Below, in pieces: positions 9,339 through 64,000 of a stretch of DNA of 64,000 bases; position 1 is the first letter of the stretch; the number at the start of each line of letters is the position of its first letter. Both the position numbers and the translations under genes were made by a program. This DNA is from Paracoccaceae bacterium (GTDB taxonomy: Bacteria; Pseudomonadota; Alphaproteobacteria; Rhodobacterales; Rhodobacteraceae), in assembly GCA_024636555.1 (NCBI GenBank), contig JAGXGW010000040.1, positions 1 to 64,000 of the forward strand, given 5' to 3'. Below the pieces are notes generated by a model. The model was not told the origin of the DNA and did not search any database. It saw only the letters and a program-made list of their open reading frames with translations.

Positions 9339-9369
9339 AATCTTTATGAAAAGACCGGAAGGGCAAGGA

Positions 9370-10753: not shown

Positions 10754-11493
10754 CCAAGTTGCCCCTCTCCCGGTTGCCATGCGCCGGGCGGGGCTTGTCC
10801 CGTGACATAGCCATGCCACAACGCATCGAGCTGCGCCCAGAGCACATCGGTCTTGAAGGTGAGTGCGGCAATCGCCGCTTCCTGATCGGCACGGGTCAAG
10901 GCGTGGTCCAGCACCCAGTGCAGGGTGAAGTTCACATCCTTCGGTGCCTCGTTCAGCCGTTGGCTGAAATAGGCCAACGTCTCTGTCGTGGCGAAATCGT
11001 AATGTTCGAGCAGCCCTTCGATCCGCCGCGTGTGGATCGCCGGCGCGAACATCTCGGTCAGCGAGGAGGCCATTGCCGCAATCAGCGGCGCATCGCGCAC
11101 GAAGCGCACATAAGCATCGACGGCAAACCGCGTGGCGGGCATCACCCCTTGCCCCGAGGCAACGTAGTCGGGATCAAGGCCCACGGCTTCGGCCAGCTTC
11201 AGCCAACGTCTTATGCCGCCACCCTCGGCCGTTCCGCCATCGTGGTCCTCAATCCGGCTGCGCCAGATCCGCCTGAGTTGCGGATCGGTGCAGCGCGACA
11301 TGAAGGCCGCATCTTTCATCGGGATCGACGCCTGATAATACCAGCGATTGATGACCCAAGCCTGCACCTGATCCATCGTGCATTCACCTGTATGGAGCCG
11401 GTGATGGAACGGATGCTTGTCGTGATAGCGCTCCTCCCCGATCTGGCGCAAACGCGCCTCGAGGGTGTCCCGCGAAAAGGATTGGTCCGTCAC
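10750..11493 (-). CDS. pqqC: Pyrroloquinoline-quinone synthase PqqC
   Basis: 247 aa; YHDKHPFHHRLHTGECTMDQVQAWVINRWYYQASIPMKDAAFMSRC. Confidence 0.96.
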   Translation of the reverse strand: MTDQSFSRDTLEARLRQIGEERYHDKHPFHHRLHTGECTMDQVQAWVINRWYYQASIPMKDAAFMSRCTDPQLRRIWRSRIEDHDGGTAEGGGIRRWLKLAEAVGLDPDYVASGQGVMPATRFAVDAYVRFVRDAPLIAAMASSLTEMFAPAIHTRRIEGLLEHYDFATTETLAYFSQRLNEAPKDVNFTLHWVLDHALTRADQEAAIAALTFKTDVLWAQLDALWHGYVTGQAPPGAWQPGEGQLG

Positions 11494-19031: not shown

Positions 19032-20546
19032 CTAAGTTGCCTCTGCCGGTTCCCGCGCATCTGCTGGTACACGGGTATTATTATCCGAGACCGGCGCTTT
19101 CAGGGCTGACAGAAATGTCTCTGCCCAGTTTTTTGCATCAAAGCGTGTGATATGCGCCAGCAACGCCCCGTGGCGCGCGCGGCGCTCTTTCAAAGGCATT
19201 GAGAGCGCGCGATGCAATTGTTGCGCCATATCTTCGGGATCATACGGGTTGACGATAAGAGCCTCTCGCATTTCCTCCGCAGCCCCTGCGAATTGCGACA
19301 GGATCAGCACACCCGGATTTTCGGGATCCTGCGCCGCAACATATTCCTTCGCAACGAGGTTCATCCCGTCCCGCAACGGCGTCACGAATCCGACATCGCT
19401 CTGGCGCATCAACGGGGCAAGCGTATCGCGCGGCAGCGCCCGGCAGATAAACTGCACGGGAGTCCAGTCAAGATCCCCGAACCGACCGTTGATAGAGCCT
19501 GTGAGTTGCTCCAGTTCGACACGAATGTCTGCATAGGCATCCACCTCACTCCGCGAGGGCGGAGCGACCTGCACAAAGCCGACCTTCTTCGTGAATTGCG
19601 GATAGCGCTGCAAGAACGCGTCAAACGCTCTGAAGCGCTCCGGCAGCCCTTTGGAATAATCCAGCCGGTCAACGCCGATGATCCGCTTGCGCCGGTTGTA
19701 CACCCGCGAATTCTGCAAACATGCCGCGTCGGTCCCGGGCTCCCGGGCCAGCGCGTTGAAGTCCTCCACGTCGATCCCGATGGGAAACCGGTTGACGCGG
19801 ATGGTCTTGTCACTTGTGAGGATATGATCTTTTGTCACCTTCACATCAGGTCTCTGCGCGGCAAGATAAGACTTCAGATTGCCCGCATCGGTATGGGTCT
19901 GGAAGCCCAGCAAATCGTAGTCCAGCAGCGCATCGACAAGCTCACGGTGATGCGGGGCGGCGGCAAGAAGCTCAGGTGCCGGAAAAGGGATGTGCAGGAA
20001 ATGTCCGATCTTTTGCCGACAGCCCAGCTTTCGCAGCATGGAGGCAAGCGGGATCAAATGATAATCATGGATCCAGATCAGATCATCGCGGCGTAAGAGC
20101 GGCATCAACTGGCGGGCAAAAATCTCGTTCACGCGCATATAACCGTCAAACGCTTTTGCCGTGATGTTCACAAGATCCAGCCGGTAATGGAACAGCGGCC
20201 ACAGAACGCTGTTTGAGAAGCCCAGATAATAATCTGCAAAATCATCCGGCGAGATGGGCACCCCGACACTGGTCACCGCGCCGTGCTGGCTGATCTTGAG
20301 TGGCCCCCCGGTTTTGCCCTCGCGGTTGCCATCCCATCCGAACCAAAGCCCTCCCTCGTCGTTGATCGCATCCGCCAGCCCGACAGCCAGCCCCCCCGTC
20401 TGGGTCGAGGAACTGAGATCCGCAACGCGATTGGACACGACAACCAGACGCTTTGCCCCTCCTCTCGGTAACGCAGGCGTACTTCTTCCATACGACCGTT
20501 CTGTTGCAAGAATGTGGCTACCAGGGGGAGAGGATTGTACTGTCAT
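19032..20546 (-). CDS. otsA: Trehalose-6-phosphate synthase (alpha,alpha-trehalose-phosphate synthase)
   Basis: RLVVVSNRVADLSS, GGLAVGLADAI, IWIHDYHLIPLASMLRK, VDRLDYSKGLPERFRAFDAFL; start at MTVQSS. Confidence 0.95.
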   Translation of the reverse strand: MTVQSSPPGSHILATERSYGRSTPALPRGGAKRLVVVSNRVADLSSSTQTGGLAVGLADAINDEGGLWFGWDGNREGKTGGPLKISQHGAVTSVGVPISPDDFADYYLGFSNSVLWPLFHYRLDLVNITAKAFDGYMRVNEIFARQLMPLLRRDDLIWIHDYHLIPLASMLRKLGCRQKIGHFLHIPFPAPELLAAAPHHRELVDALLDYDLLGFQTHTDAGNLKSYLAAQRPDVKVTKDHILTSDKTIRVNRFPIGIDVEDFNALAREPGTDAACLQNSRVYNRRKRIIGVDRLDYSKGLPERFRAFDAFLQRYPQFTKKVGFVQVAPPSRSEVDAYADIRVELEQLTGSINGRFGDLDWTPVQFICRALPRDTLAPLMRQSDVGFVTPLRDGMNLVAKEYVAAQDPENPGVLILSQFAGAAEEMREALIVNPYDPEDMAQQLHRALSMPLKERRARHGALLAHITRFDAKNWAETFLSALKAPVSDNNTRVPADAREPAEAT

Positions 20547-20580
20547 GGGACACACCTGAGGTTCGTTCATCAATTTGGTG

Positions 20581-20605
20581 AACAAGCCAAAGCCGCAAAT
20601 GTTCC
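20581..20605 (-). promoter_or_regulatory. EcfG-like promoter GGAAC-N16-TGTT upstream of otsA
   Basis: Plus strand AACA 20581-20584 ... GTTCC 20601-20605; 35 nt upstream of start 20546. Confidence 0.55.
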
Positions 20606-20709
20606 CGCCGATCATCCTCCTGCTCCGCAATTCCCGTCACACAAGCGGTCAGCACATCGGGATCAGTTCTGGTTTCACCTCAAAGGCATTTGTCCGGTGC
20701 AACCCATGC

Positions 20710-26971: not shown

Positions 26972-26987
26972 GTTTCGCGCGCGAAAC
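26972..26987. promoter_or_regulatory. parS-like 16-bp perfect palindrome
   Basis: GTTTCGCGCGCGAAAC, immediately downstream of parB. Confidence 0.75.
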
Positions 26988-27037: not shown

Positions 27038-28159
27038 CTACTTCACACTGAGAAATCGCTCAATTTCCTGCATTAGGGCCTCGACCAATTCAGCGTTGAC
27101 GCTCTCACCCTCAAACCGGATCGAATGCCCCCTCTGATCGGTGGCGTGCATCATCGAAATGCCGCTCGCGAGCCTCACGACAGCCCCGCCACTTTCCGCA
27201 GATGGCATCGGCTTGTTCCGGGGTCGACCGGGTGCTTTCGACGGCTTCTCCAGCGCCTCGACACCAAGGACGACCGGCTCCAGCAACGCCCACTCCCCTC
27301 CAGCGTCGCTGGCGTCACCGGATATCTGGCCTGCTTCAAGGGCCCGCCGCAACTCGGTGGTGAGACCGGCACGGATCGCTGCAACGATCCGCAATCCCTG
27401 CCGTTCCGACAGCTCATGTGCATGGGACAGTAAATCGCCCAACTCTTCATGCAGCTCCGCAAAGGCCCGAATCTTTGAGCGCTTTGCCTTGCTCCCTGCG
27501 TGGAACAGTGCGCTCACAGCTTCTTCAACAGAGCCGAACGCCCCCTGCCCCGCAGCCATCACCGCAATGCGACCACGCTCGTACTGGCTCAGATCGCTGC
27601 GGATCTCGTTTTCTTCCACCATCGCGACATAGGCCTCCGCCGACGCACTCTGCACGCGAACGATCGCCTTGATCCTTGTGTACGCCTCCCCCCGCGCCTC
27701 GACCATCAAAGCGCGCACCGCCATCAACCGGCGCCAGCCCGAGATCAGACCATAACGAGGGCTATCCGGATCTCCCTGCGGATTGGGATAGACCTCGATC
27801 GGCAGGCGCAATCCATGGGCGCGAATCGACGCCTTCAATTCCTCCATCTCTTCGGCATCCACATTGACGCGGTCGCGTGCGAGGGCTTCGGAGTGGATAT
27901 CGGCGATCCTGATCTCCTCGACGATCAGCCCCTCCGCCAAGGCTTTGCGGTAGCGTTCCGCATCGGTTGAATCGCGCGCGGCCTTCAACCGCTCCTCCGG
28001 ACCAAATGCGGAAGACCCCGCCGCGGCCTCGCCTGCTATCTGGGCAATCGGAGGCATCGGCCCCAACCCGCCATTGCCGGAGGTTTCGCGCGCGAAACCA
28101 TCCTCGATGTCTTTGAGCGCATCCGCGCTCGGTGCCTCCAGACGTTTGCGCTTAGCCAT
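27038..28159 (-). CDS. parB: Plasmid partitioning protein ParB (ParB/RepB/Spo0J family)
   Basis: 373 aa; LPIEVYPNPQGDPDSPRYGLISGWRRLMAVRALMVEARGEAYTRIKAIVR; overlaps parA stop. Confidence 0.9.
   Translation of the reverse strand: MAKRKRLEAPSADALKDIEDGFARETSGNGGLGPMPPIAQIAGEAAAGSSAFGPEERLKAARDSTDAERYRKALAEGLIVEEIRIADIHSEALARDRVNVDAEEMEELKASIRAHGLRLPIEVYPNPQGDPDSPRYGLISGWRRLMAVRALMVEARGEAYTRIKAIVRVQSASAEAYVAMVEENEIRSDLSQYERGRIAVMAAGQGAFGSVEEAVSALFHAGSKAKRSKIRAFAELHEELGDLLSHAHELSERQGLRIVAAIRAGLTTELRRALEAGQISGDASDAGGEWALLEPVVLGVEALEKPSKAPGRPRNKPMPSAESGGAVVRLASGISMMHATDQRGHSIRFEGESVNAELVEALMQEIERFLSVK
28083..28098. promoter_or_regulatory. Second parS-like palindrome, inside parB coding sequence
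   Basis: GTTTCGCGCGCGAAAC again (18-bp GGTTTCGCGCGCGAAACC at 28082-28099). Confidence 0.7.
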
Positions 28160-29591
28160 CTGCCTGTTCCTCCTGCTCTGTGGCCTGTGGTGCTAAACCT
28201 GCCTGTTCAGCAGCCTCTGCCTCCGCCATTGCCTGATCGCGCCACCACGCACCTATCAAAATCTCCTTGAACTCCGCATATGTCCTGTCGAACGCATCCC
28301 GGCCCCGTGCATAGGTGTCGCGATTGAAATCGCGGTAATCGGCCTCGTAGATACCATTCACCTGTTCGCCGGCCTGACCTACCAGAGCGGTAAACTCCTG
28401 ACGGTAGGCATTCATGAAATCCCCGAAGTAGGCCTGAATGACATTGGCAAGATCGGTTTGCTGATTGGCATCGAAACGCGTGATCAGCGCGCGTACCACA
28501 TCCCATTCGAATTTCATCTCCGGCAAACCGGCGCGCCGGCGGGCGGAATTTTCACCCTCTTCGATGCTGGCAAACGTGGAGTAGAGCATATCGAAGAACC
28601 GCCCCGTACTGTCGAACTCAAGAAACGACGCGCCCAAAGGCACGAGCAGGATATCGGCAGCTGCCAGAGCATTGATGGTCAGGTACCCAAGTGCGGGAGG
28701 GGTATCGAGCAGCACGATATCATATTGCTCAAGGATACCCTCATTCTCCAGAAAGTGTGTCAGCGCATCCCACAGCGGCCAGTTTCGCAACGCCATGCGC
28801 CAGACAGGCACCTGGAACTCCGCCCAGTACAGGTTCAGCTGTGCGCCGATCAGGTCGATATTGGGCCAATGCGTATTCTGGATCACATCAGCCGCCGTAA
28901 CCGTGAGAGCCTCGGTCAGGGTTTCATCGAGGGGCAGGGGGGCTTCGCCGCGCGCCTCGCGCAGACGGTTTTCCTCCTGAACAGCCAGAGCGTAATCCTT
29001 GGCCAGCAACGGGAACACCGTGGTCCATTCGTCCGCAACCTTCCCGCCCATGATCGACGTCATGGAGCCCTGACTGTCGAGATCGATCACAAGAACCTTG
29101 TAACCATCCAGCGCCGCCGACATCGCAAGATGCGCGGCTGTGGAGGTTTTACCGACACCGCCTTTGAAATTTGCCACGGCAGCGACCTTGGCAGGCAACC
29201 CCTTGGGCCGGTAGGGCAGGTACTTCTTGGAGGCCATGCCTTCCGCAGCAAAATGGTTTCGCAGCGAAACCACTTCTTCCAGCGTGAACCATTTGGAGCC
29301 GCTGGCACCTTCCCCCTGCGGCAGCTCTGGATTATTTTTGAGCACGCGGCGGAAATGGGCAGGCGCGATCGGCAGCAAGTAGCGGCAGATTTCCCAAGTA
29401 GAGAACTTCCGCAGGCGTTTGGTCCCGTCAGGCGAGTAGCCGCGTTTTGCCAGATCACTCCGCCCACGCTCGCAAAAAGCGGCCGCCTTGGCGAATCGCG
29501 CAGTATCGACGGGATCACCCAGTTTCGCAGCGGAACGTTGCGGATCAAGATTCTGATAGGGTGGGATATAAGAGTCGGGCTTTTTCGTCAT
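28152..29591 (-). CDS. parA: Plasmid partitioning ATPase ParA
   Basis: Walker-type ParA: VAAVANFKGGVGKTSTAAHLAMSAALDGYKVLVIDLDSQGSMTSIMGG, YDIVLLDTPPALGYLTINALAAADILLVPLG; start at MTKKPDSY (ORF extends to 29756). Confidence 0.94.
   Translation of the reverse strand: MTKKPDSYIPPYQNLDPQRSAAKLGDPVDTARFAKAAAFCERGRSDLAKRGYSPDGTKRLRKFSTWEICRYLLPIAPAHFRRVLKNNPELPQGEGASGSKWFTLEEVVSLRNHFAAEGMASKKYLPYRPKGLPAKVAAVANFKGGVGKTSTAAHLAMSAALDGYKVLVIDLDSQGSMTSIMGGKVADEWTTVFPLLAKDYALAVQEENRLREARGEAPLPLDETLTEALTVTAADVIQNTHWPNIDLIGAQLNLYWAEFQVPVWRMALRNWPLWDALTHFLENEGILEQYDIVLLDTPPALGYLTINALAAADILLVPLGASFLEFDSTGRFFDMLYSTFASIEEGENSARRRAGLPEMKFEWDVVRALITRFDANQQTDLANVIQAYFGDFMNAYRQEFTALVGQAGEQVNGIYEADYRDFNRDTYARGRDAFDRTYAEFKEILIGAWWRDQAMAEAEAAEQAGLAPQATEQEEQADG
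29255..29271. promoter_or_regulatory. Degenerate parS-like palindrome inside parA
   Basis: GGTTTCGC-A-GCGAAACC (odd centre). Confidence 0.4.
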
Positions 29592-29760
29592 TGTCGCTGT
29601 CTGCCTCGATGTCACATGATTTCTGTGCTGTGAGGCGAACAATCGCACATTCGCTAAAGAAAGTGAATCATCTCGTGCCAAGGGAATGACAAAGCCGCGC
29701 AAATCGACATCTTTGCAGCGAAACCATGAAAGGAAATTAACATACAGACCGATCAAGTTG

Positions 29761-29791
29761 TAGAATCTTTAGAGAACTATAGAATCTTTAG
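29761..29791. repeat. 12-bp AT-rich direct repeat (TAGAATCTTTAG x2)
   Basis: 29761-29772 and 29780-29791, in AT-rich tract between parA and the iterons. Confidence 0.7.
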
Positions 29792-29832
29792 CCAGAAATA
29801 AACATTTAAAATCAAGTAACTACATGAGTTCA

Positions 29833-29936
29833 GGCACCTGCTTACGGGATGAAGGGAACCCGGTCGCAGGACGAAAGGTACCCGTTGTCGGGAGGGCAGG
29901 AACCCGGATGCGGGTTTTTGGGTGCCGATTCGCAGG
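29833..29936 (+). repeat. Five iterons, 16-bp cores with exact 22-bp period
   Basis: ggcacctgcttacggg (29833), ggaacccggtcgcagg (29855), ggtacccgttgtcggg (29877), ggaacccggatgcggg (29899), ggtgccgattcgcagg (29921). Confidence 0.85.
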
Positions 29937-30052
29937 AGAGTCTAATTCCGCCCAAATCGTCTCTATATCTCGATTAATGCGGTCGCGAAAAAGCTCATGT
30001 AAGTCCGCGGAATGGAGCTTTGGTGGTCACTCATGGTCTGCGGGGTCCTTTG

Positions 30053-30102
30053 GGCACCCGTTTACGGGACTGCAGTCTGCCTGGCACCATCCCGTATACG
30101 GG
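30053..30102. promoter_or_regulatory. Further iteron-like copies/operator palindrome before the initiator gene
   Basis: ggCACCCGTTTACGGG 30053-30068 and CCCGTATACGGG palindrome 30091-30102 immediately upstream of rep. Confidence 0.65.
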
Positions 30103-30186
30103 CACCCATAGCAGGCTTGAGCGCGGGTGCTTTTTCTGCAACAATCGGACACGCACCGAAAGAGTGTAAACAAGAGCGGGCAAACA

Positions 30187-31467
30187 ATGGCGTTAGCGGG
30201 CAAGATACAGAGCGCGAAGATTCCCCTAAGCGGGGCGTTGAAGCGGGAATCGGTCAAAAAGAACGTGGCTGCGATTCACGTCTCGGGCAAGCTGTCGCTC
30301 TTGCAGCGCAAGCTGTCGAACGTTCTGCTCCTCAATGCCTATGACACGCTGGTTACCCAACCCAAGCATCGCATCGATGCACGTACGCTGTGTCTGATGA
30401 TCGGGTACAATTCCAATGACATGGATACCCTGAAACAGGCTCTAAGAAGCCTTGCAGAGACTGTTGCTGAATGGGATATGCTGGATGACAAGGGCAGACA
30501 GGAATGGGGTGTTTCAGCGCTCTTGTCCTATGCCAAGCTGAAAGGCGGCGTGTGTGAATATGCCTATTCGCCTGCGCTGGCTGAAAAGCTGCATGACCCA
30601 AAGGTCTTCGCTCTGATCAACCTGAATATCCAGCGGCGCTTCACCAGCGGACATGCACTGGCCTTGTACGAAAACTGTTATCGCTTCGTCCGGACAGGCA
30701 GCACAGGCTGGTGGCGGCTGGATCTGTTCCGTCGTCTGATGGGAGTTGATGACAGTGTCTATTACGAGACCTTCAAGCATCTGAACGCCAAGATCATCAA
30801 GCCGGCAGTCGCCGAGGTGAACAAGACCTCGAATATCATCCTGACACCGCAATTGCGTAAAGAAGGCCGCGCGGTGACCGAGATCAGGTTTCTCATCAAG
30901 GAGAACCCGCAACTTGCGATGTTCGAGATCGACGATAGCGAGGGTGTGCGGACCAGCGCGGTTTACTCTGCGGTGACAGGGCAGGGGGTATCTGACCGTC
31001 TGGCCCGGCAATGGATCGCGGAGCATGGCGAGGATTATGTTCGCGAGAAGCTGCGGCTGGTGACGGAATCAGAAGGTGTCGAGAATCCGGCGCGTTATCT
31101 CAGCGCCGCGATCAGAGACGATTACCGCGCAAAGCCGGTCATTCCTCCCTCCGCAGAGGTGGTACAGGCCTTCGCGCAGCGTCAGGATGCTGCGGCAAAG
31201 GCGGCACAAGAGGCCGCAGTCCGCGAGACAGAGATCACGCAAGCGCGGCAGGAACGGGCGCGTAAACTGGCCCGCGTGAGAGAGATCGCAGAGGCGCGCA
31301 ATCCAACGCAACGCGACAGTGACAAGCGGCTGTTCCTGTCGCACCTTGAGGACGAGACCGGGCGAGAAGCCTTTGTACGGCTGGGCTGGGCCTCGGCCAT
31401 CAATGCACAGGAGATCTTCGCGTTCTGGGAAGACATGGTGCCCGGTATTTTCGATCAGGCAGAATGA
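30187..31467 (+). CDS. Plasmid replication initiator (RepB / Rep_3-like superfamily)
   Basis: SGKLSLLQRKLSNVLLLNAYDTL...; winged-helix initiator-like KVFALINLNIQRRFTSGHALALYENCYRF..TGWWRLDLFRRLMGV...YYETFKHLNAKIIKPAVAEVNKTSNI; adjacent iterons and parAB. Start MALAGKIQ at 30187. Confidence 0.85.
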   Translation: MALAGKIQSAKIPLSGALKRESVKKNVAAIHVSGKLSLLQRKLSNVLLLNAYDTLVTQPKHRIDARTLCLMIGYNSNDMDTLKQALRSLAETVAEWDMLDDKGRQEWGVSALLSYAKLKGGVCEYAYSPALAEKLHDPKVFALINLNIQRRFTSGHALALYENCYRFVRTGSTGWWRLDLFRRLMGVDDSVYYETFKHLNAKIIKPAVAEVNKTSNIILTPQLRKEGRAVTEIRFLIKENPQLAMFEIDDSEGVRTSAVYSAVTGQGVSDRLARQWIAEHGEDYVREKLRLVTESEGVENPARYLSAAIRDDYRAKPVIPPSAEVVQAFAQRQDAAAKAAQEAAVRETEITQARQERARKLARVREIAEARNPTQRDSDKRLFLSHLEDETGREAFVRLGWASAINAQEIFAFWEDMVPGIFDQAE

Positions 31468-46652: not shown

Positions 46653-47867
46653 TCAGGCGACCGCGTGGGCGATAGCGCAGCGTTTCCACAGGGTGCTGAG
46701 GGCGGCGACCAGATGGTCGATATCGGCATCCGTGTGATAGGGCGATGGCGTGAAGCGCAGCCGCTCGGTGCCCTTGGGTACAGTCGGATAGTTGATCGGC
46801 TGCACATAGATCCCGAAATCCTGCATCAGGATGTCCGCAAGCTGGCGGCATTTGACCGGATCTTTGATCATCACCGGGATGATATGGCTGTCATTCTCCA
46901 GATGTGGAATACCGGCGCGGTCGAGCATCGCGCGCAGGCGGGCCACCTGACGCTGCTGCGCCTCGCGCTCGCTGACAGAGATTTTCAGATGCGCGATGCT
47001 GGCCTGCGCGGCCGCTGCGACAGCCGGGGGCAAAGCCGTGGTGAAGATGAAGCCGCTGGCGAACGAGCGGATGAAATCGCACAGGGCGACAGAGCCGGTG
47101 ATATAGCCGCCGACGACGCCGAAGGCTTTGCCAAGCGTGCCCTCGATCAGTGTGATCCGGTCCATCAGGCCCTCACGCTCGGCCACGCCGCCACCGCGCG
47201 GGCCATACATGCCGACGGCATGGACCTCGTCCAGATAGGTCATCGCGCCGTGCTTTTCGGCCACTTCGATGATCTCGCGGATCGGAGCAATATCGCCATC
47301 CATGGAATAGACGGATTCAAACGCCACGATCTTGGGTGCATTTGCGGGCAAAGCGGAGAGTTTGCGATCCAGATCGGCGGGATCGTTATGCCGCCAGATT
47401 ACTTTTTTGGCGCGGCTGTGGCGGATGCCCTCGATCATGCTGGCATGGTTCAACTCGTCCGACAGGATGATGCAATCGGGCAGACGCGATCCCAGCGTGC
47501 TCAAAGCGGCCCAGTTCGAGACATAGCCGGAGGTGAACAGCAGCGCCGATTCCTTGCCGTGCAGGTCGGCCAGTTCACGTTCCAGCAGCAGATGCGCGTG
47601 ATTGGTGCCCGAGATGTTGCGCGTGCCACCGGCACCGGCGCCGAAACTGTCCACCGCTGATTTCATCGCGTCGATCACCACAGGGTGCTGGCCCATGCCG
47701 AGATAATCGTTGGAACACCAGACAGTGACCTGTTCGGGTGTATTCTCGCTGTGGCTGATGGCGCGGGGGAACTGCCCACGTTTACGCTCAAGCTCGGCAA
47801 AGATGCGATAATTGCCTTCGGCTTTCAATGCGTCAAGCTGGCTCTGGAACAGTGTGTCAAAGTCCAT
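46653..47867 (-). CDS. hemA: 5-aminolevulinate synthase
   Basis: 404 aa; [99 protein letters not shown]. Confidence 0.97.
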
Positions 47868-48693
47868 GGGCGTCCTCGTTTCTTGTGGTTTTTCGTAACG
47901 GTACGGGTTTCAGATGGGCAGTTTTGGCCGCCGGCAGCATCCAGCGCCAGAGCTTTTCGTCGGGAAGGGGCAAAACCATCAGCCAATGCTCCAGCAGGGC
48001 AAGACTGGTGATGGCGGTCAGCAGGGCGAAACCGGCAACTTCGCCGGGCGTATTCATGGCCCAAAGCCGCTCCATCCAGCAGGCGGTCGCGAAGGTCAGG
48101 GCGGTGACGGAAAAGGGAAACACCCAGTTCAGCCGCGACAGGCGGAAATGGCTGGGCAGATGCGCCAGCGGGGTGGGCAGGAATTCGACATTGATCTTCG
48201 GCACACCGAAAAAGAGGTTCAGCTTGGCCGAGACGCGGGCGAAGAACAGCACCACGAAGGTCCACAGGCCAAAGGTATTCTCGGCACCCCAACCGGAGAT
48301 CAGGATCAGGGTCATCACCGCGACCAGCAGCATCTCGTGATAGGCGATCGTGCCCCATGCGCGGATGAAACGCTCCCATTCCGGCAGTTTGTCAGGGCAA
48401 TGGTGCAGGTTCGGGCCGGTGATGATGCCGGTGAGAAATGCCAGTTCAATCCAGCCCCAGACCGCAATGGCCGACAGGAAGGCCAGATAGGCACCGGATA
48501 CGGATGTGTCGGAGAATGTTGCGTAAAGGCCCCAAAGGCCCAGGCCGAAGACGGGCAGTGCCACCCACGTCGCCATGTTGCAGGCGCGTGCGCCGTGCCT
48601 GTCGGCATAGCGCACGGCCATCAGGATCACCCCGGTGGAAAACCACCAGACAAAAAGGGCCAAGATGCCTGCGATCCAGGGGTTATCGAGCAT
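47857..48693 (-). CDS. puhE: Photosynthetic complex assembly protein PuhE
   Basis: 278-aa polytopic membrane protein, located between hemA and acsF as in PGCs. Confidence 0.9.
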
Positions 48694-49811
48694 CAGTAGG
48701 CAGGCTCCATCCGGGTGACTTCAGGCACCGTATGCTTCTTGGACGGGATCGTGAACAGCGCCACGAAGGCCGCAGCGGCACGCGCTTGCGAGGTCAGACG
48801 GTTGATCGCGGCGCCCAGTCCGGTCTGCGTTTTGGCCTGTGCCAGATCGGCATTTGCCTTTTGCAGCCGCACCAGGCCGCGTTGCCAGCGGGGGTGCTCG
48901 ATATCCAGCGTGATCGGAAAGATCTGCTGCGACAGCACGGAGGTCTTGGTAAACACCTCATGGGCATACCAGTCGGGATCGACACCAAGCGCCTTGTGGA
49001 AGGCGGGGCGCTGGTGGTCGCGGACATACATCGTCGAATAGACCGCCGTGAGGAAGAACTTGATCCACAGCACGTTCATGCCGCTGGTCAGTTTCGGATC
49101 GGTCTTCATCAGCAGGGCAAAGGCCTCGCCGTGGCTGAACTCGTCGTTGCACCATTCCTCGAACCATTTGAAGATCGGGTGGAACCGGAATTCGGGGTGC
49201 GCCTCCAGATGGCGGAAGATCGTGATGTAACGGGCATAGCCGATCTTTTCCGAGAGGTAGGTGGCGTAATAGATGAACTTTGGCCGGAAATAGGTGTATT
49301 TTTTCTTCTGCGTCAGAAAGCCGAGGTTCACCGCAACACCCGCTTCGCGCAAAGCGTCGTTGATGAAACCCGCATGCCGCGCCTCGTCCCGCGCCATCAG
49401 CTGGAACAGTTCCGTGATGTCGGCATTGCTGCCGCGCCGCTTCATTTCCTTGTAGAGCACGCACCCCGAAAACTCGGCGGTGCAGGAGCTGATCAGGAAA
49501 TCGAGAAATTCCTTTTTCAGCTGTGGCTCCATCCCGTCCCAATCGACATGGTCCCAGTTCTCGTTCTTCTTGAAATGGCCGCGGTTGGGATCGCTTTTCA
49601 TCTGGTCGATCAGCTTGTCCCATTCCTTGCGGACGGGGGTCACGTCGATCGCATCCATCTCGTCGAAATCTGTGGTGTAGAAACGCGGTGTCAGCAGCGT
49701 GTCCTGCATCGCGACCTGCGTGGCGGATTCGCTGTCGAACTTTTCCTGAGCGGCCTCTTGCGTGGCCAGAGCCTCTTCGGCGGTCAGGGCATCTGCGGAA
49801 TGGACATTCAT
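48693..49811 (-). CDS. acsF: Mg-protoporphyrin IX monomethyl ester oxidative cyclase
   Basis: LLTPRFYTTDFDEMDAIDVTPVRKEWDKLIDQMKSDPNRGHFKKNENWD; EFSGCVLYKEMKRRG; MARDEARHAGFIND. Confidence 0.97.
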   Translation of the reverse strand: MNVHSADALTAEEALATQEAAQEKFDSESATQVAMQDTLLTPRFYTTDFDEMDAIDVTPVRKEWDKLIDQMKSDPNRGHFKKNENWDHVDWDGMEPQLKKEFLDFLISSCTAEFSGCVLYKEMKRRGSNADITELFQLMARDEARHAGFINDALREAGVAVNLGFLTQKKKYTYFRPKFIYYATYLSEKIGYARYITIFRHLEAHPEFRFHPIFKWFEEWCNDEFSHGEAFALLMKTDPKLTSGMNVLWIKFFLTAVYSTMYVRDHQRPAFHKALGVDPDWYAHEVFTKTSVLSQQIFPITLDIEHPRWQRGLVRLQKANADLAQAKTQTGLGAAINRLTSQARAAAAFVALFTIPSKKHTVPEVTRMEPAY

Positions 49812-50104
49812 AGCTTGGCCTCCTCGGAAAATGAGAATTCGCACAATTCCATGAATTCGAAATCGCCCGTCAGACGTGTCCAGAGACGTTCTAGTTTGCT
49901 GGCGCGGATGATCGTGGCTTCGCGATCCTCGATCACAACCTCGCCGTAGGGGGCCATGATCTGCGGCCCGTGCACCTTGACCTCATCCCCCGGATGGATC
50001 ACGGCGCCGTTGTTGAATTTGACGTGGGCATGCAGGCTTTCGAACCTGTGGCTCACTTCGACTGTGCAGGGGGCGTGTTCAACCTCTTTTGTCAGTAGTC
50101 CCAT
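49808..50104 (-). CDS. Conserved small PGC protein between puhC and acsF
   Basis: MGLLTKEVEHAPCTVEVSHRFESLHAHVKFNNGAVIHPGDEVKVHGPQIMAPYGEVVIEDREATIIRASKLERLWTRLTGDFEFMELCEFSFSEEAKL; 4-nt overlap with acsF. Confidence 0.85.
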   Translation of the reverse strand: MGLLTKEVEHAPCTVEVSHRFESLHAHVKFNNGAVIHPGDEVKVHGPQIMAPYGEVVIEDREATIIRASKLERLWTRLTGDFEFMELCEFSFSEEAKL

Positions 50105-50123
50105 ATCGGTTCCCTTTGCGATA

Positions 50124-50585
50124 TCAATCCAGCAGCCTGGCGAAGGCTCTGGTGTTTGTGAGACCGAACCCCATGAGGTCCGCTCTCCATCCGGTCGTGT
50201 CGTCATAGATTGCAATGCGGTTATTTTCCGTGCGGACAAGCCGCAAGGGGCCGTCAACGGGCACACCGTGCTTGGTGCGTTCGCGCACCAGTACCCGGTA
50301 GACGCCCGAGATAAAGCCGCCCTGTTCGGGCGACAGTTGCGCGATGACCTGCCCATCGGCATCCATCACGTTGGCAGCACCGCTCATGTCCCCTGACAGC
50401 GTGATGATGCGCTCTGCGACAACCGCCTCCACCGGGGGTGTGGCCTCCAGCGGGCGGTCCGTCAGGCTGGCCATCGTCACGAGCGCCAGTGTGATCAGAA
50501 CAACCGCTGTCAGACTGCGCCCCAGAAAGCGCGGGATCAGATCGACCTCTGGCCTTGTTTTGTAGGCGTGAACTGGCATCGTCAT
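50124..50585 (-). CDS. puhC: Photosynthetic complex assembly protein PuhC
   Basis: Single TM + PuhC-like domain; position between puhB and orf-acsF. Confidence 0.9.
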   Translation of the reverse strand: MTMPVHAYKTRPEVDLIPRFLGRSLTAVVLITLALVTMASLTDRPLEATPPVEAVVAERIITLSGDMSGAANVMDADGQVIAQLSPEQGGFISGVYRVLVRERTKHGVPVDGPLRLVRTENNRIAIYDDTTGWRADLMGFGLTNTRAFARLLD

Positions 50586-50595
50586 GGCCGTCTCC

Positions 50596-51243
50596 TCATT
50601 CTGCCGCGACAGCCGTGCCCGCATGGGGCGTCTGTGTCAGGTTGCGGGCGATGACCGGGCTGGACACGCGCTTTTCGGCCGCGTCGCTCAGCATGTCGGC
50701 GATATGCGCGGCATCGGGGATGCAGCGTAGTGCAGGTTGGGTCTGGCGCATGACCCAAGGGCGGACGTGAGGCCAGCATACCAGATAGGATAGCTTGTTA
50801 TCTCCGATCAAATCCAGTGCGATCGTGCCGGTGCCGCCTTTACGCAAATCGAGAGTGGCGTTGGCGATCTGCGTATAGGGCAGGTTGAGCGTCACCGTCA
50901 GCGCGGCCCCGATCCGCATTGCCACGCGGCGATTGGTGATCGTGTAGACCGTCGCGCGGGCCTGCACATAGGCGGTGATGATCAGCAAGGCGCAGGTGAT
51001 GCCGCCGAGGATCACGAATGGAAACGATCCGCTGAGGGCCTGCGCCAGCGTGTACTGATCGCTCATCACGGTGAAGCGCCATGCGAAGAGGAACACGAAA
51101 TAGCCGATCACCCAGTACAGGTTGAGCGATTCCTTGGTCAGGGCCCACCAGTCGGGACGACCCTGCCACAGGATCACTTCACCTTCGGGCGGAAGTTCCG
51201 GCAGACCGTTGATCGGTTCTTGGTCAAAATCGTCGTGGGACAT
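50596..51243 (-). CDS. puhB: Photosynthetic complex assembly protein PuhB
   Basis: 215 aa; GLPELPPEGEVILWQGRPDWWALTKESLNL, ARATVYTITNRRVAMRIGAALTVTLNLPY (PH-like). Confidence 0.94.
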   Translation of the reverse strand: MSHDDFDQEPINGLPELPPEGEVILWQGRPDWWALTKESLNLYWVIGYFVFLFAWRFTVMSDQYTLAQALSGSFPFVILGGITCALLIITAYVQARATVYTITNRRVAMRIGAALTVTLNLPYTQIANATLDLRKGGTGTIALDLIGDNKLSYLVCWPHVRPWVMRQTQPALRCIPDAAHIADMLSDAAEKRVSSPVIARNLTQTPHAGTAVAAE

Positions 51244-51264
51244 GGTGAAGACCTTTCCTAACTA

Positions 51265-52035
51265 TCAGATTTGCGGCTCAAGCCGGTCCTGGCTGGCATA
51301 GAGTTTGCCGCCTGCGTAGTAGCCCGAGATCTTGTCTTCCTCGAGCAGGGTGACCTGCCGGGGGGATGCGGTTGTCGGCACGTTCTTGAAATGCTTGCCG
51401 AAGATCGAGTGGATCTTGACGCGGTCGGATTTGATCTTGACCAGGGTCATCGGCACCAGACGGGTGCCTTCGCCCCAAGCCGGGTCCAGCTTGATCTCGA
51501 GATAGCGCACAAGCTGCTCTGGCTCGTCGATCCACATGTCCACGATCGTTCCGACAATCTCCAGATCACCACCCTGCACCGGCAGACCGCGCGGATCGCG
51601 TCCGGCTGAAACGTGGAATTGGTTTGTCGCGGCCATCGGAATGATCTTGGGGTGCCCCTTGCCATCCAGTTCCGGCACATCGCGGCGCGGTGCCCACGAG
51701 GCAGGGCCGACGCCGTCGATCATCGGATCTCCCGTCGGCTCGAAGGGAAAGCCGTTTCCGGCGGCGGTCTTGCGCAGGGCAAGGTCTTTACGTTCAGGCG
51801 TCTGGCCGCTTGGCACGGTCACATCGCCACGGCCATGTGGCAATTTGAAGGTCTTGTCATCGGGCACCGGGAACAGACCCTGATTGACCGAGACATTGCC
51901 GTCGTCATCCTCAAGCGGATAGCCTTCGCGCATGTTCTCGCGCTGAATGTAAAAGATCAGCAGGGCGAAAAAGCCCCAGAATAGCCAGAGGGTCAGGCTG
52001 GCAAGGTCGAATTCGCCGAAGAATGTTGCTGTCAT
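51265..52035 (-). CDS. puhA: Photosynthetic reaction center H subunit
   Basis: 256 aa; FDLASLTLWLFWGFFALLIFYIQRENMREGYPLEDD. Confidence 0.97.
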   Translation of the reverse strand: MTATFFGEFDLASLTLWLFWGFFALLIFYIQRENMREGYPLEDDDGNVSVNQGLFPVPDDKTFKLPHGRGDVTVPSGQTPERKDLALRKTAAGNGFPFEPTGDPMIDGVGPASWAPRRDVPELDGKGHPKIIPMAATNQFHVSAGRDPRGLPVQGGDLEIVGTIVDMWIDEPEQLVRYLEIKLDPAWGEGTRLVPMTLVKIKSDRVKIHSIFGKHFKNVPTTASPRQVTLLEEDKISGYYAGGKLYASQDRLEPQI

Positions 52036-52063
52036 GGTCTTGTCCTCCTAGGGGAGCCTTGGA

Positions 52064-53505
52064 TCAGGTTGGAAAATCGGCCAGACCAATAGGTTTCGGC
52101 CCATGGTCGGGTTGGTTGGAACTGGCCGAGACGGTCCGCACCAGCGGACCCAGAGCAACCAGGGTAACGAAGAGAATTGCGATTTCAGTATGATAGACAA
52201 CGGAGTAGCCGGTGGCGGGGCTGTTTAGCGCCTCGCCCAGCTTGCCGCTCAGAGCGAGGTGATTGACCCAGTCGCGCAGCGCGCCGCCAAAAGCGATCGA
52301 AGATCCTGCCGCCGTGGCCTGTGCCGCGCCCCAGGCGCCAAGCGCCAGTCCGCGCCCTGCCAGCCCCTGCGCGGGCATCGCCATGGCGGCCATCAGCGTC
52401 GAGACGGCGAACAGCCCTGCACCGAAGCCGATCATCAGCGCGCCGGCGAAAAAGATCGTGGGCGAGTTCATCGGAGCGGCGAAGATCACGATGGAAAAGG
52501 CCATAATGCCGGTAAGGATACCGCCACCCGCCATCCGGTAGGGATTGGCCTTGCGGCCGAGCATCCGCGCGGCGACGCCAAAGCCCGCAAGCGCACCGGC
52601 GGCCCACATGGCTGTCAGCGTTGTGGTGGCCGCGACCGACAGGCCGAGGATCTCACCGCCATAGGGCTCCAGCAGAACGTCCTGCATGTTGAAAGCAATC
52701 GTGCCCAGAAACACCACCGCCAGCAAGCGGCCTGCCGTGCCACCTTTCATCAGGTCGGCCCACGCGTCGGCAAATTTGGGGCGCGGGGCCTCGCGCTCTT
52801 CCTTGCTCATCGGGCGGACATGTTCCTGCTTCCACAAGGCGAGGATGTTCAGCGCCAGACCCACGACAGCGGCACCCTGCACTACACGGATCAGCGTCAG
52901 ACTGGTGAAATCACGCAACAGGAACCCGATGATCAGCGCAGAGGCACCCATGCCCAGCAGGAACATCACATAAAGCAGCGCCACCACGCGAGCACGCGTC
53001 TCGTCCGTGGCGCGGTCACTGGCCAAAGCGAGACCGGCAGTCTGGGTCATATGCAGGCCCAAACCTGTCATCAGGAAGGCCAAAGCGGCCAGCACCTCGC
53101 CAGCGAAGGGCACCTGATGCACAACGTCGCCGCCCAGCACCAGCAGAGCAAACGGCATCACCGCTAGCCCGCCGAACTGCCACAGCGAGCCGAACCAGAG
53201 GTAAGGGATACGCTTCCAGCCAATCGCGCTGCGATAGGTATCCGAGCGGAACCCCAGCAGCGCTCGGAACGGCGCGATCAGGACAGGCAATGCGATCATG
53301 AAGGCCACGATCATCGCGGCAAGGTTCAACTCCACGATCATCACACGGTTCAGCGTGCCCAAAAGCATGACCGAGGCCATCCCGACCGAGACCTGAAACA
53401 GCGACAGCCGCAACAGTTGCGACATCGGCAGCCCCTCGCTCGCCGCATCCGCAAAGGGCAGCATATTGGCTGTCATCCGGGTCAGGAAACGGGGGGCATT
53501 GCGTG

Positions 53506-53509
<4 letters not shown>
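52064..53509 (-). CDS. lhaA: LhaA / BCH-PucC family transporter-like assembly factor
   Basis: 481 aa MFS-like; LRLSLFQVSVGMASVMLLGTLNRVMIVEL..RAWLGFRSDTYRSA-type BCH motif (FRALLGFRSDTYRSAIGWKRIPYLWFGSLWQFGG). Confidence 0.94.
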
Positions 53510-55085
<1,576 letters not shown>

Positions 55086-55120
55086 TCAAACTGGGCGCGA
55101 AGCCCTGTTTCTTCTTGCCG

Positions 55121-55153
55121 GAAATATTCCGGGGGTGTGGGGGCTGGCCCCCA
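55121..55153. repeat. Intergenic palindromic repeat copy C
   Basis: AAATATTCCGGGGGTGTGGGGGCTGGCCCCCAC between bchH and bchL. Confidence 0.5.
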
Positions 55154-55185
55154 CGGCGATGTCGTCAGATGGGTCAGGTGCCGTG

Positions 55186-58100
55186 TCATTCCGCAGCAAT
55201 CCCTTCCATCCGGTCTTCCAAATGATCCGCAGCGGCCTGAAGCGCTGCCAATGTTGCGGCATCGGGTGTCCAATAGGCGCGGTCGCTGGCTTCCAGCAGG
55301 CGGTTGGCCATGCGGCTGGACGAGGCGGGGTTCAGATCGGCGAGCCGCTTGCGCATCACCTCGTCCAGAACGAAAGTCTCGCTCAGACGCTGGTAGACCC
55401 AAGGCTCCACCTGTCCGGTGGTGGCCGACCAGCCCATTGTATTGGTCACATGCGCCTCGATCTGGCGCACACCTTCGGCACCATGCGTCAGCAGTGGCTC
55501 GAAAAAGCGGGGGTTCAGCGCGCGGGAGCGTGTTTCGAGCGCGACCTGTTCCTGCAGCGTGCGGACCTTGCCCGCCCCCCGTGTCTGGTCGCCGATATAG
55601 ACAGCTGCTTCCGTACCGCCACGGGCGCGTTTTACCGCACGTGCGATCCCGCCGAGCGTGTCGAAATAATGGTCCACCGTGGTGACACCCAATTCGACGG
55701 ATTCGAGGTTCTGATAGGCCAGATCCACGTCCTTGAGCGCCTTTTGCAGCAGCGCCGCGTTCTGCGTGGCCTTGCCGTTGACACCGTAGGCAAAGCTTTT
55801 GCGCGCCTCGTAGGCATCGGCCAGCTCGTCCTCGTCGCCAAAGGCGGAGCTGTCGACCAACTGGTTGACGTTGGAGCCGTATGCTCCTTCCGCGTTGGAA
55901 AAGACGCGCAGGGCGGCGCTTTCGATGTCGGTTCCCATGTCTGCGGCATAGGTCAGTGCATGGGCGCGGATGAAGTTCATCTCCAGCGGCTCGTCGGCTT
56001 GGGCGGCGCGCAGGGCGGCCTCGGCCAGCATCTTGGTCTGCAAGGGCAGCAGGTCGCGGAAAATGCCGGACAGCGTCATGACCACATCAATGCGCGGGCG
56101 GCCCAGTTCGGCGAGCGGGATCAGATCGGCGCCTGCCAGACGGCCAAAGCTGTCAAAGCGCGGCTTGGCACCCATGAGGGCCAGTGCCTGTGCAATCGGT
56201 CCGCCGTCGGATTTGATATTGTCGCTGCCCCAGAGTACCATCGCCACGGTCCGCGGCAGGGATTTATGCGTATCCAGCAACAATTGTGCCTGTTTCGTGC
56301 CTTCGCGGCAGGCAAATTCTGTAGGCATGCGGAACGGATCGAAGGCGTGGATATTGCGCCCCGTGGGCAGCACTTCGGGCGAGCGGATCAGATCGCCGCC
56401 AGCAACGGGAGAGGTGTAGCGCCCCTCAAGTGCACGCAGCAGGGCAGGGATTTCGTGATCCTGCTTCAGCAAGGCCTCGACCTTCGCGCGGGTCGCATCA
56501 TCGCAATCGGCCATGACGCGGACGTATTCGGCGCGCGCCAGATCACTGAGCGGACGGCCCAGCACATGCAAGCCGTCAGGGATAAGGGCGTTTTCGGTTT
56601 CCAGCAGCTTGAGCCACAGAGCGGCGGGGGCAACCTCGCTCATATCCACGGCGCGGGCTTGTTCGCCGATCAGCAACTCCAACTCGTCGCGCGCATCGGC
56701 ATCGGGGGCCATGGCGCGCCAGCGCGTCAGGCTGTCCTTGAGTTCGGCCAGACCCTTGTAAAGACCGGAGGCGGCCAGCGGCGGCGTCAGATGCGTGATC
56801 GTCACGGCACCTGTGCGGCGCTTGGCGAGTGTGGCTTCGGATGGGTTGTTGGACGCGTAGAGATAGACATTCGGCATGTCGCCGATCAGACGGTCCGGCC
56901 AGCAAGCGCCGCTGACGCCCGCCTGTTTGCCGGGCATGAATTCAAGCGCGCCATGCATGCCGAAATGCAGCAGCACATCAGCCTTGAAGGTGTTTTGCAG
57001 CCACAGATAGAAGGTGGTGAAAGCGTGAGTCGGGGCAAAGCCACGCTCGAACAGCAGGCGCATCGGGTCGCCCTCATAGCCGAAGGTGGGTTGCAGGCCG
57101 ACGAAGACATTGCCGAATTGCGCGCCCAGCACGAACACGCCGCGCCCGTCGCTTTGCACACGGCCGGGGGCAGGCCCCCATGCGGCCTCGATCTCGGACA
57201 GCCACGGGGTTTGCGCGACGATCTGGTCGGCACTGATATGGGCGGCGACATTCGCCTCCTGTCCGTATTGGCGGGCGGAGCCTTGCAGCACGACCTCGCG
57301 CAGCTCTTCCACGGTGGCGGGCGGTGTCAGGTCATAGCCCTGCGCCGCCAGCGCATGCAGCGTGTTGTGCAGCGACTCGAACACGCTGAGATAAGCGGCG
57401 GTGCCAGCGGCCCCTGCATTGGGCGGAAAGCCGAACAGAACGATGGCCAGCTTGCGCTCGGCTGCCTTGCTGCGCCGGAGCAGGGCCTGTTTGGTGACCC
57501 GCAGCGCCAGTTTTTCGATCCGTTCGATGCAGGGCGACATCTGCTTGGCGGTCGCGGTGTTGCGGCACATATGGGCGCAACCGTCGCAACCGTCCTGCCC
57601 GTGCCGGCCCGCGAAAACAGAGGGATTTGTCGCGCCGTCCAGTTCCGGCAGAGCGATCAGCATGGTTGTCTCGATCGGTCCCAGACCGCTCGTTGAACCG
57701 GCCCACTGGCCCAATGTCTGGAATTCCAGCGGATGCGCCGCAATGTAAGGAACATCCAGCGCCTTGAGCACCTTCACCGCATTGTCGTTGTCGTTATAGG
57801 CGGGGCCACCGACCAGCGAGAAACCGGTGAGGGAAACCAGCGCGTCAATCTGTGCGACACCGTCTTTGGTGAAATAGGCATCAATCGCGGGGCGGCCGTC
57901 CAAACCACCGGCAAAGGCAGGGATCACGCGCAGGCCACGCGCCTCGAAGGCACGGATGACGGCATCGTAATGGGCTGTATCGGAGGACAGCACATAGCTG
58001 CGCATCATCAGCAGACCGACTGTGGCCACAGGCGCTTTGGGCGCAGGCAGATCGGCGGCGTTGGTCGTGATCCGGGCGGCGAGGTCGGGGTGGTACAGCC

Positions 58101-58747
58101 CGCAATCGGGATATTCCAGCGGGGCAGGCGCCTCGGACCCGCGCCACTGATCGACACGGCCGTAGCGCGAGATCAGAAAGCGCACCATGCCTTCGATATT
58201 GTCGTCGGAACTGCCCAGCCAGTATTGCATGATCAGGAACCATGCGCGCAGATCCTGCGCCTTGCCGGGAATGAACCGCAGAATACGGGGCAGGCGGCGC
58301 AGCATCTTCATCTTGCTCTCGCCGCTCTCGGCGGAAGGCTTGGATGTGCCGCGCAGTTTCTTGATCAGTTGCATCGCGCCGGAGGCGGGCTTGGACATGT
58401 CCAGCGTGCCCATGCGGGTCAGCTTGACGATCTGCGCATCGGCAATCACACCGATCATCGCATCGCAATGGTCGCGGCGGGCTTCGAGTGTGGGCAGGAT
58501 CGCGTTGATATGCTCCTCGAGGAACAGCAGGTTCGAGATGACGATATCGCCGGTTTCAATCGCCTGTTTCGCGGCCAGCAGCGCATCGGGGCTTTCGCCC
58601 CATTCTGCTGCGGCATGGACGCTCAGCGAAAGGCCGGGAAAATCGCGGGAAAGACGTTCGGAGGCGCGGGCGCAGGGGCCAGCCGCATGGCTGTCCAGCG
58701 TCAGGATCACGACCCTGTAGCCCGGCAGCGGGCCTTTTATCACTCGG

Positions 58748-58758
<11 letters not shown>
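55186..58758 (-). CDS. bchH: Magnesium chelatase subunit H
   Basis: Start at [31 protein letters not shown] 55186..58821; full-length BchH family motifs ([38 protein letters not shown]). Confidence 0.97.
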
Positions 58759-62060
<3,302 letters not shown>

Positions 62061-62113
62061 TTCCGACTCCCGTTCGGTTGCGTAAACCCAAAGTAACGGT
62101 GTCAGAACAAAAG

Positions 62114-62131
62114 TGTCAACTAAAACTTACA
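62114..62131. promoter_or_regulatory. PpsR/CrtJ-type operator TGT-N12-ACA
   Basis: TGTcaactaaaacttACA, 54 bp upstream of bchF start. Confidence 0.75.
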
Positions 62132-62154
62132 CAACACGCATAGGAGTGAGGCAG

Positions 62155-62172
62155 TGTAAGCCAGGCTTGACT
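62155..62172. promoter_or_regulatory. Second PpsR-like half-conserved operator TGT-N12-ACT
   Basis: TGTaagccaggcttgACT, 41 bp centre-to-centre from the first (tandem arrangement). Confidence 0.5.
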
Positions 62173-62359
62173 TTTGGAAAATTATACTTTCTTTTCAATG
62201 GTGTAAGAAATTCATGTTTAATTTGGGCCTCCTTTGTGCGCTGTTACTGTCTAATATCTTTGACATTAGGCCCTTAAAACTCGACAATGCGGTTACAAAG
62301 AGTCCAGATGAGCGGCCATAGGGCCTAGACATGGACTTGGTGCCGCTCGCGGAGGGCAG

Positions 62360-63166
62360 ATGTCCAGACGTCCCGATCATAGGCTTGCCAAAGCCGCACA
62401 AGGCCCTGCGCCCAAAGGGATCTTTGAGGTCGGCGCATTGGCGAGCAAAGTCATCTCGGTGCTGCACGAACGCAGCATAGCCGAGAATGCCTTGCTGTGT
62501 GATGCGATCATTGACCGGTTGCTGGCGGCCATAATCGACCCCAAAGGATTCGATGCGGAGGCCGTATTGGCCATGCTGCATTCTTCCCGGCTGTCCTATG
62601 AGGACATCGTGAGCTGCTACATCCCCGAGGCGGCACGCCATCTGGGCTGTCGCTGGAACCAGAGCGATATGAGCTTCGCGCAGGTCAGCACCGCCAGCGT
62701 GCGCTTGCAGGATCTCGTTCGGCTGATCTCGTCGGGCTGGTCCATCGAGGCAGGACGGCGGCCGACCGCGCAGCAGTTGGGTATCTTGCTGGTGATTTGC
62801 GAGGATGATCTGCACACGCTGGGATGCGCGACAATTGCCGCGCGTCTGCGCTATGCGGGCCATTCGGTCAGGCTGATCTTCGGCGCAACACAGCTGGATG
62901 TGCGTAAAGCCATGCGGCAGGACTGGTATGACCTCGTCATGTTTTCATGCGCGAGGCTACAAGCTCTTGATACCGTTGGCCAATTCGTTAAACACATTCA
63001 GGCAACGATGCGCGATGTGCCGCCGCTGGTCCTTGGCGGACTGATTTTGCCACAGGTTCCGGACGCGCAGACATTAACGGGTGTGGATTTGGCAACCAAT
63101 GATCTGCAACTTGCTCTCAAGCTTTGCGACGCGCGCGCGGTCGAAAAGAAACTTGTGGCCGAGTAG
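62360..63166 (+). CDS. ppaA: PpaA/AerR-type cobalamin-binding photosynthesis regulator
   Basis: 268 aa; ICEDDLHTLGCATIAARLRYAGHSVRLIFGATQLDVRKAM; directly precedes ppsR. Confidence 0.88.
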   Translation: MSRRPDHRLAKAAQGPAPKGIFEVGALASKVISVLHERSIAENALLCDAIIDRLLAAIIDPKGFDAEAVLAMLHSSRLSYEDIVSCYIPEAARHLGCRWNQSDMSFAQVSTASVRLQDLVRLISSGWSIEAGRRPTAQQLGILLVICEDDLHTLGCATIAARLRYAGHSVRLIFGATQLDVRKAMRQDWYDLVMFSCARLQALDTVGQFVKHIQATMRDVPPLVLGGLILPQVPDAQTLTGVDLATNDLQLALKLCDARAVEKKLVAE

Positions 63167-64000
63167 ATGACAAAAGGTGGATCCCATTTTTGGTCCAGCG
63201 GATCGGTTCCGCTGATAGAGCCTGAATTCCTGCGCAGCATCGTGGCCGCAGCGTCCGATATCGCGCTGGTCATCTCGCGAGATTGTCTGGTGCAATCGGT
63301 TCTGATCAACTCCAACGACACATCCTATGGCAATCTCGACCACTGGGAAGGGCGGCGTATCCAGCAGTTTCTGACCCCTGAGAGCGTGCCCAAGTTCGAG
63401 AATGCGGTTTCGCGGTTCGTCGAGGGCGAAGAGAACATGCGCCCGGTCGAGTTGAACCATTCCGACAATGCGGTCTGGGAATTTCCGATCCGCTATACGT
63501 TCCACATGATCGGCACAGACGGGCAAATCCTGATGCTGGGGCGTGATCTGCGCCTGATCGCAGAGACACAACAGCATCTTGTGCAGGCGCAAATGGCGCT
63601 GGAGCGTGGCTATGAGGCACGGCGTGAATTTGATTCGCGCTACCGCCTGTTGCTCGCGACGACGCGTGATGCGATTGTTTTCGTCTCGGTCGGGACGGGC
63701 AGGATCAAGGATATCAACGATCCCGCAGCCAGCCTTCTGGGCGCGTCGCGTGACGATCTCACCGGTGCGACATTCGCGCAGGAATTCAAGGACAAGCGCA
63801 GCGGCGAGTTCGTTGAATCGCTCGTGAATCTGGCGATTTCGGAATCCGTCTCCGACCTCGAAGTGCAGACCCGGCGCAGCCGGAAACGGGTGACCCTCAC
63901 GCCAACCGTGTTTCGTGCGGGCGGCGAGCGGGTTCTGATCTGTCGTCTTGATCCGGACGAGGATGCCCGCGTGGTCGATGATCAACTGATCCAGAACCTC
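63167..64000 (+). CDS. ppsR: Transcriptional regulator PpsR/CrtJ, partial (runs off right edge)
   Basis: ATG 63167: MTKGGSHFWSSGSVPLIEPEFLRSIVAAASDIALVISRDCLVQSVLINSNDTSYGNLDHWEGRRIQQFLTPESVPKFEN...; PAS domains (TTRDAIVFVSVGTGRIKDINDPAASLLGASRDDL). Confidence 0.94.
   Translation, partial: MTKGGSHFWSSGSVPLIEPEFLRSIVAAASDIALVISRDCLVQSVLINSNDTSYGNLDHWEGRRIQQFLTPESVPKFENAVSRFVEGEENMRPVELNHSDNAVWEFPIRYTFHMIGTDGQILMLGRDLRLIAETQQHLVQAQMALERGYEARREFDSRYRLLLATTRDAIVFVSVGTGRIKDINDPAASLLGASRDDLTGATFAQEFKDKRSGEFVESLVNLAISESVSDLEVQTRRSRKRVTLTPTVFRAGGERVLICRLDPDEDARVVDDQLIQNL

Follow-up and report, generated by a model that had tools for sequence, protein, structure and literature searches.

The region 29738-31467 of the analysed DNA (the first 64,000 nt of a contig, below called the window), together with the adjoining parAB genes, is very probably the module by which a Rhodobacterales plasmid or chromid of the RepB-I type is replicated and partitioned. 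It resides on a photosynthesis replicon that is best explained by the merger of a DnaA-like plasmid with a RepB-I plasmid, of which RepB-I remained. The origin itself is ordinary and well conserved, and its type is known from Rhodobacterales; what deserves notice is the replicon that presumably arose by the merger. The origin and the initiator gene comprise the following features.

29738..29832, AT-rich tract, candidate DNA unwinding element (by composition)
29833..29942, plus strand, five iterons with a 22-bp period (starts 29833, 29855, 29877, 29899, 29921), putative Rep binding sites
30053..30074, plus strand, putative iteron-like operator site A (profile score 23.7; counterpart in most relatives)
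30085..30106, minus strand, putative iteron-like operator site B, inverted, includes CCCGTATACGGG (profile score 23.2)
30117..30145, plus strand, predicted rep promoter (TTGAGC at 30117-30122, 17-nt spacer, AACAAT at 30140-30145)
30187..31467, plus strand, rep, initiator of the Rep_3 family, RepB-I type (by Pfam and identity), 426 aa from a conserved ATG

Iterons and the AT-rich tract

The five cores placed by the initial annotation at intervals of exactly 22 bp are all present, and the core units, as read from the window sequence, span 29833-29936 with this exact period. In a scan of lags 10-40 across the 64-kb window, the strongest self-match is that of lag 22 at 29796-29833 (49 of 88 bases; the runner-up lag gave 45). 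Only two of the five units, 29877 and 29899, match GGNACCCGNNNNCGGG perfectly, and unit 29921, which reads GGTGCCGATTCGCAGG, deviates from it. With two mismatches allowed, the core is not enriched in the window (40 sites found, 42 expected). Thus the core is degenerate, and the signal is in the phasing and its conservation, not in the core alone.

The comparative set consisted of 80 Rhodobacterales loci obtained by a ParA search, 78 of them with a complete parA-rep interval. When periods 14-39 were scanned, 22 bp was the best one in 77 of these 78 intergenic regions, many of the loci being mutually related and thus not 78 independent events. In control blocks of coding DNA from the same loci, 22 bp was the best period in 7 of 228, which is the chance rate. 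Hence the repeats are not lacking in relatives with the same initiator, an absence that had been named by the initial annotation as evidence against an iteron origin. The non-enrichment of the single core motif would fit a chance arrangement of the repeats, but this explanation is refuted by the comparison, as both period and position are kept in the relatives, and its probability is negligible.

The iteron motif derived from a profile of 532 sites, GGTACCCGTTTACGGGA, is common to the window and its relatives. Of 79 regions, 59 have a ladder spanning five units and 18 a ladder of four. The same iteron array is seen in a published RepB-I chromid and plasmid. Scored with the profile trained on the relatives, the seven sites of the window origin have 15.6-23.7 bits. 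The only other site in the window above 15 bits (28682-28703, 17.5 bits) lies inside parA and outside the ladder, and possibly occurs by chance.

The AT-rich tract immediately upstream of the cores contains the direct repeat TAGAATCTTTAG at 29761 and 29780, as had been described. Over the 80 bp that precede the ladder, the A+T content averages 69%, compared to 47% downstream, and the content is higher upstream in all 79 of 79 relatives. The tract contains GAATCTTT in 38 of 79 relatives.

In OX638333.1, a record labeled as a chromosome, the RepB-I module occurs twice, as loci L099 and L101 (at 1.83 and 1.78 Mb); the two copies are 9.4 kb long, identical, and 43 kb apart. They represent either a plasmid dimer produced in the assembly or a tandem that has integrated.

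Candidate operators and promoter of rep

Downstream of the array, CACCCGTTTACGGG at 30055 and the palindromic CCCGTATACGGG at 30091-30102 were found as originally reported. Beyond that report, 30053 and 30085 are the starts of full iteron-like sites in opposite orientations ahead of rep. At least one extra iteron-like site is found directly ahead of rep in nearly all relatives.

The 17-nt spacer of the predicted rep promoter holds an iteron head, GGGTGC, and a T-run. A TTG[A] element followed by the iteron head and the T-run matches the search pattern in 66 of 79 relatives; the pattern was picked from eight close relatives, and thus this count is descriptive and not a test. In the pattern TTG[A]-17 nt-NANNAT, the NANNT-type -10 sequences are commonest at the 17-nt spacer. 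The recurrence of iteron-like copies at a conserved predicted promoter in the relatives is consistent with the autoregulatory operator suggested earlier.

Two other interpretations of this region were rejected. Firstly, the site at 30053 is helically phased with the ladder (132 = 6 x 22 bp from 29921). However, this phasing holds in the same genus only and fails in more distant relatives, and thus it was dismissed. Secondly, the sequence GCACCC..GGGTGC-TTTTT ahead of rep resembles an intrinsic terminator, but the conserved TTGA and the 17-nt spacing fit a promoter better. It may still terminate upstream transcripts.

The Rep protein and the proposed mechanism of replication

The open reading frame of rep reaches upstream to 30127. 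Its product, initially described as a Rep_3-like initiator, indeed has both Rep_3 winged-helix domains, WH1 and WH2 (Pfam Rep3_N, 73.6 bits, E=3e-20; Rep3_C, 53.9 bits, E=2e-14; both above the cut-off). It is 70% identical to the initiator of pDSM109990_a and 66% identical to that of pDSM107133_b, both published as RepB-I (PMC9025767), and 27% identical to one RepB-III initiator. Judged by pairwise identity to these two RepB-I proteins and one RepB-III protein, Rep groups with RepB-I. The two RepB-I replicons also share with the window the divergent parAB genes, a 22-bp ladder of the same motif, and iteron copies before rep. They differ in that no photosynthesis genes were seen in the short stretches of them that were read, whereas the module of the window shares its contig with such genes.

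No relative of Rep was found in PDB by sequence. Foldseek matches of the Rep model are RepE structures, among them complexes with iteron and operator DNA. The AlphaFold model is weak (pLDDT 66.7, falling below 50 over much of the N-terminal region), and thus we treat the fold match as supportive only.

The oriS/RepE system of mini-F combines an AT-rich region and direct iterons with inverted operator sites that precede the rep gene (PMC13028717). The window has counterparts of these elements, the operator sites being putative, and, like mini-F, a two-winged-helix initiator. However, Rep of the window is only about 15-19% identical to RepE in structural alignments and has a C-terminal extension of roughly 170 residues, and, unlike mini-F, the window has no consensus DnaA box (no exact TTWTNCACA in the window; exact matches only were searched) and no recognised incC-like array. 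Origins of iteron-regulated plasmids commonly, although not universally, contain DnaA boxes.

By analogy with mini-F, Rep monomers would fill the five direct repeats on one face of the helix, two turns apart, and Rep bound to the iterons would open the AT-rich tract directly upstream. Rep dimers bound to the iteron-like sites overlapping the rep promoter would repress rep, and copy control is presumed as well. The initial annotation had proposed an iteron origin composed of an unwinding element, iterons and an operator; at the sequence level, this architecture is supported by the Rep_3 domains, the conserved period, the AT-rich tract and the operator-like copies.

A 22-bp period is also formed by the five 19-bp repeats with 3-bp spacers of Paracoccus pHAE2 (PMC3832669). 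This plasmid and related RepB-type REP modules have, like the window, a Rep_3 initiator with an iteron oriV; they are small plasmids, and the likeness is taken from the description in that paper.

Partition genes and candidate parS sites

The partition genes and candidate centromere sites are as follows.

27038..28159, minus strand, parB, centromere-binding protein (Pfam domain ParB_N)
28152..29633, minus strand, parA, partition ATPase (AAA_31), divergent from rep
26972..26987, candidate parS GTTTCGCGCGCGAAAC, downstream of parB; same position in relatives
28083..28098, candidate parS GTTTCGCGCGCGAAAC, close to the start of parB
29256..29270, weaker candidate parS, 15-bp palindrome variant GTTTCGCAGCGAAAC, inside parA

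Divergent parAB genes adjoining rep are a RepB-I trait. A repABC operon with a RepC initiator was not found in the window, where parAB is divergent from a Rep_3 gene.

The palindrome GTTTCGCGCGCGAAAC (GTTTCGC-NN-GCGAAAC) was obtained by considering perfect palindromes that recur among the loci. It occurs twice in the window, with zero copies expected by chance, and at the same two places in a subset of the relatives. It fits the relaxed parS consensus of repABC replicons, GTTNNNNGCNNNNAAC (PMC9040568). The strict repABC consensus has a single match with one mismatch, which is not above chance. Many relatives, mostly with ParB 42-48% identical to that of the window, lack palindromes of this type, and thus their parS must differ. 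ParB would partition the replicon by acting at these separate 16-bp palindromes.

One could suppose that the 22-bp array and the palindromes near it are a ParB-binding centromere or a ParA/ParB operator rather than a replication origin, since the array is situated between parA and rep and dyad symmetry (CCCG-N4-CGGG) is seen in several cores. However, GTTTCGCGCGCGAAAC is a better candidate for parS, with positions conserved in relatives, and with this separate candidate most of the reason for taking the iterons as a centromere falls away. Besides, the iterons are constant across relatives whose ParB proteins are just 42-73% identical and many of which lack the palindrome. In the distant RepB-III, the 22-bp array is a different one. 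Finally, two loci with Rep_3 genes, L028 and L029, retain the 22-bp period despite having no detectable ParA homologue nearby. Thus a partition role of the array is highly improbable, and we retain its assignment as a replication origin.

The quantitative RepB-I consensus (five 22-bp iterons, operator copies, promoter, and candidate parS) can be used for predicting compatibility groups and for building vectors.

Photosynthesis genes on the RepB-I contig

Seven genomes of the same genus were compared. Below, G000 is the genome of the window (80 contigs, 79.6% completeness), and C68 is the contig of the window (72,683 bp). This contig carries one more relevant feature.

46653..64000, minus strand, partial photosynthesis gene cluster (hemA-like, acsF-like, PucC, bchB, bchN), continuing towards the contig end at 72683

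The closest plasmid relatives of these genes are from known photosynthesis plasmids. The other half of the cluster, with pufLM, is on a second contig of G000, C62, where the cargo of the RepB-I plasmid of G003 is inserted into this part of the cluster. In G001, one 186-kb contig, C8, unites the photosynthesis cluster with RepB-I and a large part of this cargo. The order of the module and the cluster differs between G000 and G001.

The GC skew of C68, the analysis of which had been proposed by the initial annotation, has its minimum at 29.3 kb, near the origin. In G001:C8 the minimum is at 124 kb, near the RepB-I module, and the maximum is at 28.5 kb, approximately half a circle apart; the skew amplitude was reached in none of 500 block shuffles.

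The module might also be integrated in a chromosome or be a chromosomal relic. Neither C68 nor G001:C8 has an end overlap, so that neither is closed in this way, and genes of metabolism and photosynthesis, both present on C68, are usually chromosomal. On the other hand, rep, parA and parB are intact and have conserved sites, no tRNA genes were found on C68 or on the 186-kb contig of G001, the neighboring genes are collinear with a circular plasmid, and in relatives RepB-I resides on circular or complete plasmids. A chromosomal location is therefore unlikely. Of the two options left by the initial annotation, an extrachromosomal replicon or an integrated one, the former is supported by the presence of the same module on such plasmids.

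Probable merger of two plasmids

The two types of plasmids exist separately in sister genomes. Contig C12 of G006 is circular (approximately 69.5 kb; its ends overlap by 44 bp, and parA continues unbroken through the junction). It carries the photosynthesis cluster and a DnaA-like replicase that shares 64-70% identity with the replicases of R. ponti p1, R. litoralis pRLO149_94 and two further photosynthesis plasmids. Contig C101 of G003 is likewise circular (approximately 58.3 kb; its ends overlap by 55 bp, and an ORF bridges the junction); it has RepB-I and does not match C12, the photosynthesis plasmid. Starting from 31484, 17 bp past the RepB-I stop codon, C68 is collinear with C12, where the matching stretch begins 44 bp past the stop codon of the DnaA-like gene. 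Thus RepB-I sits where C12 has the DnaA-like replicase.

No DnaA-like replicase was found in G000, G001, G003 and G005; its absence is weak evidence in G000, given the completeness of that assembly, and stronger in G001, which is 100% complete. Neither bchB nor RepB-I was found in G002. The window regions 1707-12386 and 19032-20630 carry genes for a glycogen branching enzyme and for amylase/maltokinase-like, radical SAM and trehalose-phosphate synthase-like proteins, with no match in G001:C8 or G006:C12.

The simplest account of the combination seen in G000 and G001 is a plasmid merger with retention of RepB-I: a DnaA-like photosynthesis plasmid would have merged with a RepB-I plasmid, and the RepB-I system would have stayed. 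It is likely that in this genus the photosynthesis cluster has passed in this way from a DnaA-like plasmid to RepB-I control, with the presumed parental types persisting as separate circles in sister genomes. Alternatively, the link between RepB-I and photosynthesis genes could be an assembly chimera of two plasmids, as in G003 RepB-I is found on a 58-kb circle of its own, which lacks photosynthesis genes, and the arrangement in G000 is unlike that in G001. However, both are present on one contig in two genomes independently, contig C62 of G000 also interleaves cargo of the RepB-I plasmid with photosynthesis genes, and the DnaA-like replicase was found in neither G000 nor G001. Thus a chimera seems unlikely.

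If the merger took place, it adds RepB-I to the replication types of extrachromosomal photosynthesis clusters and provides a case of replicase replacement at the very position of the lost replicase. It is also relevant to the movement of photosynthesis between replicons in Rhodobacteraceae, with the proposed parents and the merged product occurring here within one genus. In published surveys, extrachromosomal photosynthesis clusters are on DnaA-like I replicons and one RepB-III replicon (PMC6739100, PMC6052148), and no RepB-I case was found in the open-access PMC literature. The DnaA-like I plasmids pRLO149_94 and p1 have photosynthesis genes related to those of the window and match G006:C12; the window differs from them in having RepB-I in place of the DnaA-like replicase. 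For one strain, it has been inferred that a module of another type took over from a DnaA-like one (PMC6052148). Seven plasmids with photosynthesis genes were searched for RepB-I without a hit. One of them, the 612,909-bp plasmid of Roseinatronobacter sp. S2, contains bchB, bchN and bchH, and a protein search found neither RepB-I nor a DnaA-like replicase on it; thus other replication types exist for photosynthesis plasmids.
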